Shown here piece after piece: positions 317 through 28,816 of a DNA stretch of 32,658 nt. The stretch is taken from NCBI GenBank assembly GCA_903854535.1, contig CAINWR010000003.1, forward strand, positions 1-32,658, given 5' to 3'. Numbering within the stretch: position 1 is the stretch's first letter; each line of letters starts with the position of its first letter. A model generated the notes under the pieces. It was not told where the DNA came from. It saw only the letters and a program-made list of their open reading frames with translations, and searched no databases. A program made the position numbers and the translations under genes. The DNA comes from Candidatus Staskawiczbacteria bacterium. Its GTDB lineage: Bacteria > Patescibacteriota > Minisyncoccia > Minisyncoccales > Staskawiczbacteraceae.

Positions 317-322
317 ATCAAG

Positions 323-2104
<1,782 letters not shown>

Positions 2105-11735: not shown

Positions 11736-11764
11736 TTGGTCGTCATATAAAAGTTTGTTATAAT
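11736..11764 (+). promoter_or_regulatory. Extended -10 promoter for wHTH gene
   Basis: TTGGTC-17 nt-TATAAT with TGt extension (TGTTATAAT, -10 at 11759-11764). Confidence 0.6.
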
Positions 11765-11773
11765 AAACAAACA

Positions 11774-11805
11774 ACAGTCTTACAGTCTTGAGATTGTAAG
11801 ATTGT
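11774..11805 (+). repeat. 32-nt palindrome A, copy 1 (upstream of wHTH gene)
   Basis: ACAGTCTTACAGTCT tg AGATTGTAAGATTGT; arms pair completely if G.U allowed in plus-strand RNA. Confidence 0.9.
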
Positions 11806-11833: not shown

Positions 11834-12142
11834 ATGGTGGATATTAAAGTAAATAACAACAAAGAAAAAACGCCGAAACAAATGGAACGGCATTTGAAGG
11901 GTTTGGCAAATCATTACAGGATTGCGATTTTACTTTTGATAGACCAAACTGAAAGTATAACTTTAGAAAAAATTATCGATACTCTTGAAGCTAATAAGAA
12001 AACAATGAGCGCACATACCAACAAACTTTTTTTAGCAGGATTAGTCAATAAAAAGTATCGGGGGAGATATGTAGAACACAGGCTTTCACCATATGGTAAA
12101 ATGTTTGTAGATTTTTTAAAAGCATTTAAAAATATTTCATAA
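11834..12142 (+). CDS. ArsR-like winged-helix transcriptional regulator
   Basis: MERHLKGLANHYRIAILLLI..TLEKIIDTLEANKKTMSAHTNKLFLAGLVNKKYRGRYVEHRLSPYG. Confidence 0.8.
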   Translation: MVDIKVNNNKEKTPKQMERHLKGLANHYRIAILLLIDQTESITLEKIIDTLEANKKTMSAHTNKLFLAGLVNKKYRGRYVEHRLSPYGKMFVDFLKAFKNIS

Positions 12143-12166
12143 ATTTGCGTATTAATTAATAAAACA

Positions 12167-12198
12167 ACAGTCTTACAGTCTTAAGATTGTGAGATTGT
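12167..12198 (+). repeat. 32-nt palindrome A, copy 2 (downstream of wHTH gene)
   Basis: ACAGTCTTACAGTCT ta AGATTGTGAGATTGT; 30/32 identical to 11774-11805. Confidence 0.9.
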
Positions 12199-12277
12199 AT
12201 TAAGGTTTTCAGGTTTGAAAATTCAAATCACAAATTATTTTTCGGAATTTGAATTTTGAATTTTGAAATTTAAAAAT

Positions 12278-12829
12278 ATGTGGGGATTTATTATTTGGGG
12301 AATTATTATTGTGGTAGGTTTTTGGCTAGTTGCTAATTATAATGGTTTGGTAAAGTTAAGAATGCGAGCTAAAGAAGCTTGGAGTGATATTGATATTCAA
12401 TTAAAAAGAAGATATGATTTAATACCTAATTTAATTGAAACAGTAAAAGGTTATGCAAGTCACGAAAGTAATGTATTTCAAAAAGTTACAGAAGCCAGAG
12501 TAAGAGCAATAGCTACTCAAGGAATGGCGCAAAAAGCACAAGCAGAAAATCAATTGTCAGAAGCTTTAAAAAGTTTGTTTGCAGTATCTGAAAGTTATCC
12601 GGACTTGAAAGCTTCAACAAACTTTTTGCAATTACAAACAGAATTAACAGATACAGAGGACAAAATTCAAGCTTCTCGCAGATTTTATAATGCCAATGTA
12701 AGAGATTTGAATATCCAAATTCAAGTATTTCCAACAAATTTAATTGCCAAACAATTAGGATTTTCAGAAATGGAATTATTTGAAGTAGCTGATGCCAAAG
12801 AGCGTGAAAACGTGTCTGTTGAGTTCTAA
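12278..12829 (+). CDS. lemA: LemA family protein
   Basis: N-terminal TM then YNGLVKLRMRAKEAWSDIDIQLKRRYDLIPNLIETVKGYA; ATG at 12278 preferred over TTG at 12263. Confidence 0.93.
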   Translation: MWGFIIWGIIIVVGFWLVANYNGLVKLRMRAKEAWSDIDIQLKRRYDLIPNLIETVKGYASHESNVFQKVTEARVRAIATQGMAQKAQAENQLSEALKSLFAVSESYPDLKASTNFLQLQTELTDTEDKIQASRRFYNANVRDLNIQIQVFPTNLIAKQLGFSEMELFEVADAKERENVSVEF

Positions 12830-12838
12830 TTATAAATG

Positions 12839-12958
12839 CTCGGTAAATTGACTTTTTCTTGCTTGGCAAAATGAACTTTTTTTTCCGTGGCTGAGCCACT
12901 GCGGTGTGCTCCAGCTTGCCCTGCTGGGCAACCTACAAAAAAAGTTCATTTTGCCTCG
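12839..12958. repeat. 120-bp structured intergenic element (type II) with the same architecture as the type I repeats
   Basis: Perfect 19-bp inverted repeats GGCAAAATGAACTTTTTTT (12865-12883)/AAAAAAAGTTCATTTTGCC (12937-12955) enclosing hairpins GTGGCT-g-AGCCAC and TTGCCC-TGCT-GGGCAA; bounded by CTCG on both sides. Confidence 0.9.
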
Positions 12959-12970
12959 CTTATTATTTTT

Positions 12971-13873
12971 ATGGCAACACTTTATACGCAAGCAGATTCA
13001 AATACGAGAAAAACTTGGGCTTTGCTCACAGGATTTTTTGTGTTTATTATACTTTTGGGCTGGTTGTTTGCATACTTATCAAATAATGATGCATTTATAT
13101 TTTTCGCTGTAATTATAAGTTTCTTTATGAGTTTTGGAAGCTATTGGTGGTCTGATAAATTAGTTTTGGCAATGACTCGCGCAATACCTGTAGAGCATAA
13201 TCAAAATCCAGAGCTTTATCATATTGTAGAAAATTTATGTATTACAGCAGGATTGCCTTTGCCTAAGATTTATATAATTCCTGAAATGCAGATGAATGCT
13301 TTTGCTACAGGTCGTGATAAAAATCATGCAGTAGTAGCTGTAACTCAAGGACTTTTACAAAGATTAGAAAAAAAAGAACTTGAAGGAGTAATTGCTCACG
13401 AGTTATCACATATTGGAAATAAAGATATGTTACTTCAAACAGTAGTTGTAATTTTAGTTGGAGTTGTTTCTATTATTTCAAATATGTTTTTTAGAATGTC
13501 AGCTTTTGGGGGGAGAAGTAGAGATGATGATAATAAAGGAAATTTAGGTGTAATTTTACTTATTGTTGGAGTTTTAGCTGCAATTTTAGCTCCAATAGCA
13601 GCTACTTTAATACAGCTGGCGATTTCTCGTAAACGTGAATTTTTAGCAGATGCTTCTGGTGCACTTCTTACAAGATATCCTGAGGGTTTGGCGAGTGCTT
13701 TAGAAAAAATTTCACAAGACGGTGTACCAATGAAAACTGCTAGTACAGCCACAAGTCATTTATTTATTTCAAATCCATTTAAAGGTAAGCAGTCTTTAAA
13801 TTGGTTTACAAAATTATTTATGACCCATCCTCCTGTAGAAGAAAGAATAAAAGCATTAAGAGGCATGAAATAA
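12971..13873 (+). CDS. htpX: Protease HtpX (M48); true start MATLYTQADSNTRKT
   Basis: HELSH zinc motif, AFATGRDKNHAVVAVTQGLL; the 12887 start in the ORF track reads through the structured element. Confidence 0.95.
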   Translation: MATLYTQADSNTRKTWALLTGFFVFIILLGWLFAYLSNNDAFIFFAVIISFFMSFGSYWWSDKLVLAMTRAIPVEHNQNPELYHIVENLCITAGLPLPKIYIIPEMQMNAFATGRDKNHAVVAVTQGLLQRLEKKELEGVIAHELSHIGNKDMLLQTVVVILVGVVSIISNMFFRMSAFGGRSRDDDNKGNLGVILLIVGVLAAILAPIAATLIQLAISRKREFLADASGALLTRYPEGLASALEKISQDGVPMKTASTATSHLFISNPFKGKQSLNWFTKLFMTHPPVEERIKALRGMK

Positions 13874-26993: not shown

Positions 26994-27125
26994 AAATTTT
27001 AATTTAAAGTTTAAAATTATATTTTTCCTGTCAACCGACAGGTAGGCGACCTTTATTTTCCTATATATTATATACGCAAAACAAATAAAAATTTTTTAAA
27101 TATTTGAATTTTAACCACAAATTTA

Positions 27126-27165
27126 CAACTACCTTGTTAGTACGATCGTATTGACAAGGTAGTTG
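27126..27165 (+). repeat. 40-bp palindrome B, copy 1, overlapping the -35 of the PaaX-like gene
   Basis: CAACTACCTTGT tag TACGATCGTA ttg ACAAGGTAGTTG; perfect 12-bp outer arms and 10-bp central palindrome. Confidence 0.95.
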
Positions 27166-27179
27166 GGTGGTAATAAAAT
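27151..27179 (+). promoter_or_regulatory. Promoter of PaaX/Cas2-like gene, predicting a leaderless mRNA
   Basis: TTGACA (27151-27156)-17 nt-TAAAAT (27174-27179), 6 nt before ATG at 27186. Confidence 0.75.
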
Positions 27180-27185
27180 TAAATT

Positions 27186-27764
27186 ATGCAAAGAAGATAT
27201 GGAGAAATTACAAAAGATATTTTATTGACAATGGCTACTGCTGGAATAATAACTGTGGCTGTAACTATGTCGCCCAATTTGTTATACAATATTACTAAAG
27301 AAATTATTAAAATTAAAAAGAAAGATTGGGTGCGTAAAAATGTCGATGCCGGGAGGTTGTCAAGATCTTTAATTGGTTTAAATAAAAATAAAATAATAAT
27401 TTTAAAAGAGAATAATGGAAAATTTATTGTAGAGCTTACAGAACGAGGTAAAAAAATTGTAAAAGAAATGCAGTATGAGGATATGAAAATAGAAAAACCG
27501 AATAAATGGGATAAAAAATGGAGAATAATAATTTTTGATATTCCAGAAGGACGAAGAAGAATGGCGCGCGATGCTTTACGAGATAAACTTAAAAAATTAG
27601 GGTTTTATTTAATACAAAAAAGTGTTTGGGTATATCCATATCCTTGTGAAAAGGAAATTCAGTTCTTATGTGAAATGTTTGAAATAAACCCTTATGTAAA
27701 TATTATAACTGCAGATAAAATATATAATGATGACATTGCAAGAGAATATTTTAGATTATCTTAA
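27186..27764 (+). CDS. PaaX-like winged-helix regulator with Cas2-like ferredoxin-fold domain
   Basis: N-terminal HTH-like region, then KWRIIIFDIPEGRRRMARDALRDKLKKLGFYLIQKSVWVYPYPCEKEI. Confidence 0.8.
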   Translation: MQRRYGEITKDILLTMATAGIITVAVTMSPNLLYNITKEIIKIKKKDWVRKNVDAGRLSRSLIGLNKNKIIILKENNGKFIVELTERGKKIVKEMQYEDMKIEKPNKWDKKWRIIIFDIPEGRRRMARDALRDKLKKLGFYLIQKSVWVYPYPCEKEIQFLCEMFEINPYVNIITADKIYNDDIAREYFRLS

Positions 27765-27794
27765 TTAAGTTATTTAAATTTTTTATATTTAACA

Positions 27795-27834
27795 CAACTA
27801 CCCAGTTATCACGATCGTACCGACAAGGTAGTTG
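27795..27834 (+). repeat. 40-bp palindrome B, copy 2, downstream of PaaX-like gene
   Basis: CAACTACCCAGTTATCACGATCGTACCGACAAGGTAGTTG; same length, 34/40 identical to copy 1. Confidence 0.93.
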
Positions 27835-27847
27835 TATAGGGATAGAA

Positions 27848-28627: not shown

Positions 28628-28654
28628 TTAATTTTTGCTTGGCAGTAATTTTTA

Positions 28655-28792
28655 CTCGAAAACAAATTTTAGTCGGCACCGGTGTTGAAATTTTCCAGCG
28701 AAAATTTCACACCTCATTCTCGGCAATTTTTCTCGCTTTGCGAGACCATGCAAAAATTGCCTCCGAAGGTGCCTTTAAAATTTATTTTCTCG
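28655..28792. repeat. 138-bp structured intergenic repeat, copy 2 (type I)
   Basis: 136/138 identical to 323-460; differences G327->A28659 and C407->T28739. Confidence 0.95.
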
Positions 28793-28816
28793 TAAATTAT
28801 TGCTTTGTATATTTAT

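Follow-up and report, generated by a model that had tools for sequence, protein, structure and literature searches.

The window, the whole stretch of 32,658 nt that was analysed, is contig C3 of a Candidatus Staskawiczbacteria assembly of 844 kb with 31% GC as measured on the window, and it carries a long palindromic sequence between lemA and htpX. The closest named relatives of the encoded HtpX are those of Candidatus Staskawiczbacteria metagenome-assembled genomes (MAGs), with 91% identity to RIFOXYD1_FULL_32_13. The lemA stop codon ends at 12829 and the htpX ATG stands at 12971, and the perfect 19-bp inverted repeat that the initial annotation described 5' of htpX is present at 12865-12883 / 12937-12955. 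The features of the junction are as follows.

12263..12829, + strand: lemA, the gene 5' of the element (Pfam LemA, E 1e-60)
12838..12860, + strand: left-arm remnant GCTCGGTAAATTGACTTTTTCTT of an older element, adjoining the intact element (78% identical to the intact left arm in direct orientation, at a spacing of 24 nt)
12861..12959, + strand: intact framed palindromic element GCTTGG...CCTCGC, 99 nt (covariance models R1 and R2)
12865..12883, + strand: left arm of the outer stem (19/19 complementary to 12937-12955)
12889..12916, + strand: interior hairpin 1, GGCTGAGCCAC TGCG GTGTGCTCCAGC (minimum-energy fold; conserved in L032, L034, L322 and L348)
12916..12931, + strand: interior hairpin 2, TTGCCC TGCT GGGCAA (inverted repeat)
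12937..12955, + strand: right arm of the outer stem (inverted-repeat pairing with 12865-12883)
12971..13873, + strand: htpX, the gene 3' of the element (Pfam Peptidase_M48, E 2.8e-34)

The element folds far better than 200 dinucleotide shuffles of its sequence (z of -7.17 as DNA and -5.94 as RNA), and none of the shuffles folds as well. Both short inverted repeats that had been read as two interior hairpins exist, but the first does not take the form GTGGCT-g-AGCCAC; the minimum-energy fold and the interior common to L032/L034 and L322/L348 correct it to GGCTGAGCCAC-TGCG-GTG-T-GCTCCAGC. In L032 and L034, hairpin 2 gives way to different sequences that are also paired. CTCG is found at 12839 and 12955 as had been reported, but the motifs do not make a simple direct-repeat frame and instead belong to a symmetric internal loop. 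The GCTCGG at 12838, previously taken for the start of the element, is part of a second left arm, and the intact element, whose left foot is CTTG instead of CTCG, occupies 12861-12959. Positions 12845-12867 recur at 12869-12891, 24 nt further on, as a direct repeat of 78% identity, and the same layout of a left arm followed by an intact element is seen at L321:6822, L332:6615, L343:1147, L346:13766 and L348:5272. By this sequence comparison, 12838-12860 is an orphan left arm left over from an older element. With these corrections the observation in the initial annotation is real, and it is partly confirmed.

All members share the frame GCTCG-stem...stem-CTCGC around exchangeable interiors of several types, and the arms too are common to these types. 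When folded, the frame forms the symmetric internal loop GC-TC-GG / CC-TC-GC, in which TC faces TC with base pairs on either side, and on the opposite strand GA faces GA in a C-GA-G context. Tandem G-A mismatches in this context are unusually stable, so the two strands of an element should fold differently. A genome-wide search for CTCG-framed sequences with the pattern GCTCGN{65,95}CTCGC gives 15 matches against 5 in the reversed control, and the stricter pattern GCTCGNNAA...TTNNCTCGC matches 10 times in this genome, against 0 for its control, up to 20 times in genomes of the same genus and only sporadically in other families. The same GCTCGG...CCTCGC frame occurs with unrelated stems at L044 and L047, in other families of the order, which suggests that the frame predates the element family.

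The window holds two further members, which are 99% identical to each other (322-461 and the copy from 28655).

322..461, + strand: type I member in the groES-groEL spacer, 140 nt, with a further nested interior (R2, E 5e-5)
28654..28793, + strand: the other type I member, separating a cupin gene from the next gene (R2, E 9.5e-5)

We searched 36 genomes of the family with the two covariance models R1 and R2. The htpX copy scores 32.2 bits with R1 (E 2.2e-6) and 28.4 bits with R2 (E 5.8e-6), and near-identical copies are found in two same-genus genomes (L322:6526 and L348:6044). Members were detected in 15 of the 36 genomes, about 20 in this genome and 2-38 in each of 14 other Staskawiczbacteria-related genomes, and none were detected by the models in the remaining 21. 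Element lengths range from 72 to 151 nt. The superfamily that the initial annotation predicted is supported: models built from other subfamilies match the two type I copies as well as the one at htpX, and more members are found both across the genome and in its relatives. The stems vary while remaining paired. Two positions are unconstrained by the pattern, and there 89 of 108 distinct pattern matches are paired (80 strict Watson-Crick and 9 G-U). In addition, 10 of 30 pairs in alignment A5 show a double compensatory change that keeps the pair, and L348:5272 has a wholly different yet complementary stem around a common interior.

The placement of 122 elements was counted with a hexamer gene model, after two weak calls (L378:11281 and L315:2887) had been dropped as likely false, and flanks were compared on sequence stretches around the elements. 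The expected location between co-directional genes holds for most members, with 97 of the 122 lying in such spacers in sense orientation, but not for all, as 9 are antisense, 7 lie in convergent or divergent contexts and 9 are intragenic. Among the 87 sense spacer elements that were measured, the median distance is 7 nt past the stop codon and 14 nt ahead of the start codon. The occupied junctions include atpB-atpE, atpE-atpF, atpG-atpD, rpsL-rpsG, groES-groEL and the region upstream of sodA, the gene names being read from translated ends, and Pfam tests covering the genes of the window. The sense orientation of 97 of 106 elements in co-directional spacers, the tight spacing, the presence in the atp, rpsL-rpsG and groES-groEL operons and the compensatory changes would all fit cis-acting operon RNA structures, such as RNase III-type processing or stabilising sites between cistrons, that are kept for regulation, since a regulatory function that is kept would make elements co-directional with genes. 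Several results argue against such sites, and we regard them as an improbable explanation. No Rfam family matches at the gathering score, the sole match in the window being a tRNA. Sister species have nothing at these junctions or carry an unrelated palindrome there, some members lie within genes, and orientation mostly tracks replication over genes where the two are discordant.

At orthologous junctions an element is present in some genomes, and the site is empty in others of the same genus or family. The atpE-atpF junction is empty in G001 (TTTAATTATATGG), holds a subfamily A element in G000 and holds an arm remnant plus a subfamily C element in G002; the rpsL-rpsG junction is likewise empty in G001. 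At lemA-htpX, L070 is empty (TTTTAAAAATATGGCAACA), with a stop-to-start spacer of just AAAT, and L069 carries the unrelated palindrome TCATTGCGAGG...CGCAATGA. This second palindrome family occupies junctions, and the mnmA loop, that the elements also use (upstream of htpX in L069; mnmA of G019 in L194; L168), with many matches in G019, G032, G002 and G006 and one element in this genome.

The intragenic members are all free of stop codons and lie in sense in mnmA (in several genomes), rnhB and tgt and in antisense in miaB, these names being assigned from conserved motifs. In mnmA and rnhB the reading frame through the subfamily C insert is the same (LAKSNFSARHGLS...RARKIYLAR). Depending on the species, the mnmA loop holds one or another type of palindrome or is short. 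We also observed short perfect palindromes that are apparently in frame in coding sequence, GCGAGCGGTCCGACCGCTC in rnhB (L037) and CCTGCCTGCCGGACAGGCAGG in sodA (L039).

Terminal inverted repeats, dispersed near-identical copies and A/T-rich insertion sites are also what conventional miniature inverted-repeat elements (MITEs) would show if a DDE transposase acted on their double-stranded ends. When empty and occupied sites are aligned, no target-site duplication of constant length is visible, though the A/T-rich flanks and the divergence of the orthologues may mask one. CTCG is fixed at both ends in direct orientation and the bias toward one replication strand is strong, and we regard movement by a DDE transposase as improbable.

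Intact elements are also found within another pair of arms, as at L061 and L316:10341. We infer that the recurrent left-arm remnants arose by insertion of one element into another, followed by loss of the duplicated right arm. Nested and partial forms, and left-arm remnants joined at T-runs, could also come from enzyme-free spread, in which the template switches between lagging-strand hairpins by quasi-palindrome correction or arm recombination. Arms that change together, such as the stem of L348:5272, and the lack of a detected enzyme are consistent with such switching, which nevertheless accounts better for change at occupied sites than for insertions at sites that are empty in relatives, and we hold it to be rather unlikely as the route of spread.

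We used third-codon-position (GC3) skew, corrected for gene strand, as a proxy for the leading strand and took |R|>0.06 as a clear skew. At this threshold 105 elements have leading and 2 have lagging polarity. Because most genes share the leading polarity, only head-on, convergent and divergent contexts discriminate, and these give 13 leading against 2 (n=15 clear cases; one-sided P 0.004). The GC3 skew of G017 looks uninformative, being near zero though its genes all lie on one strand (L409, L410), and we therefore give the result without this genome as well, where it is 11:1. On contigs with at least two elements, all elements lie on one strand in 24 of 25. The exception is G021:C26, with two minus elements at 6.5 and 24 kb and three plus elements at 144-170 kb, and there the element strand flips where the GC3 skew flips, near 100 kb. 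At this point (L400/L401) the skew turns from negative to positive, as it would at an origin of replication. L366 is one strong exception, in which orientation follows the genes. Where gene and replication direction disagree, element orientation mostly follows replication, and this 13:2 result is the one set above against RNA sites kept for regulation. Leading polarity places the GCTCG...CTCGC strand on the lagging-strand template. The mobile hairpins of IS608 and ISDra2 have a single-stranded lagging-strand-template substrate (PMC6006769).

No mobilising enzyme was found among the Y1 transposases and the PaaX_M/Cas2-like family that were examined in the family genomes. Y1 transposases are absent from the element-rich G014, G021 and G031 and present in several element-free genomes, and a search of 20 Y1_Tnp loci with model R1 gave no flanking member and nothing below E 0.2. 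The PaaX_M/Cas2-like gene was rejected as well, being absent from the element-rich G003 and G031 and abundant in the element-poor G006 and the element-free g7 genomes G016, G032 and G028. No exact match to one subfamily arm was found in viral contigs. An identity with integron attC sites was also discarded, since neither the consensus arms AAATAAAC...GTTTATTT nor the arms of the htpX copy, AAATGAAC...GTTCATTT, fit the GTTRRRY / RYYYAAC boxes.

Two other arrangements of repeats were seen in the window. A PaaX_M (Cas2-like) gene of 192 aa at 27124-27836 is flanked by 45-nt inverted repeats of 82% identity that are themselves palindromic, and PaaX_M matches occur in 25 of the 36 family genomes, with up to 12 per genome; the gene and its flanking repeats are possibly a mobile single-gene element. 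Palindromic repeats of 42 nt that are 90% identical (11764-11805 / 12157-12198) flank a 102-aa ORF at 11834-12142.

Among known systems, the Rickettsia palindromic elements (RPE; Ogata et al. 2000, as summarised in PMC2229807) are similar in being imperfect palindromes about 100-150 nt long, with several families per small genome and no known transposase, and in having both intergenic copies and in-frame intragenic copies in conserved genes (here mnmA, rnhB and tgt). The Staskawiczbacteria elements differ in belonging to another phylum with no known shared sequence, in the mismatch frame GCTCG...CTCGC at both ends, in their strong replication-linked orientation and in their nesting. The likeness being one of features, they are treated here as an RPE analogue rather than an RPE member. 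Palindromic coding repeats have also been reported in Wolbachia and an archaeon, according to titles cited in PMC2229807.

REP/REPIN repeats are mobilised by RAYT Y1 transposases, and CGTC-tagged REPs occur without a dedicated transposase (PMC3733652, PMC6006769). They resemble the elements in lying in operon spacers and in forming short hairpins whose foot carries a conserved tetranucleotide, but here CTCG stands at both feet, in contrast to GTAG (GTGG) or CGTC at one end in REP, and the units are larger, contain a three-way junction and have no flanking RAYT. The IS200/IS605 family shares the predicted single-stranded hairpin substrate and the orientation of lagging-strand-template insertion, but it has two separate subterminal hairpins instead of one closed outer stem, and among the 36 family genomes no tnpA is linked or co-distributed with the elements and their ends are not shared with a tnpA-bearing element. 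The elements lack the defining features of REP/RAYT and IS200/IS605 derivatives that were tested. ERIC/IRU and Correia (NEMIS) repeats are likewise palindromes of about 100-200 bp in transcribed spacers, but they have TA-type termini and target-site duplications (PMC2229807), which were not seen here. Searches of the literature turned up no report of such elements in Patescibacteria or CPR, and the family is previously undescribed.

Taken together, we consider it likely that the lemA-htpX sequence is a copy of a non-autonomous, RPE-like palindromic mobile family that spreads as single-stranded hairpins of the lagging-strand template. An element of this family, about 72-150 nt long and hosted by Candidatus Staskawiczbacteria and close kin (Patescibacteria), consists of an outer stem, whose frame is the symmetric mismatch GC-TC-G / C-TC-GC, and an interior that is exchangeable and usually has two hairpins. 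New copies would be inserted into operon spacers rich in A/T, into a few protein loops that tolerate them or into the loop of an earlier element, and subsequent loss of the shared right arm would leave a left-arm remnant, as at htpX. The mobile form would most likely be a single-stranded hairpin for which the lagging-strand template is both source and target, which would give the GCTCG...CTCGC strand its leading-strand polarity, and the framed hairpin would presumably be read by an enzyme. A doubtful but possible reading is that the elements are a new class of replication-coupled single-strand element, with a TC/TC mismatch frame that reads as tandem G-A on the other strand, growth by concentric nesting and an enzyme that is neither a Y1 transposase nor a known partner.

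In-frame palindromic insertions are known from Rickettsia, and here they occur in Patescibacteria, a group in which genome reduction is otherwise pronounced. Across species, a given operon junction or a given loop of a tRNA-modification enzyme carries different palindromes, and such sites offer a natural series in which to study how elements spread, how proteins tolerate them and whether lagging-strand hairpin DNA is the moving form.
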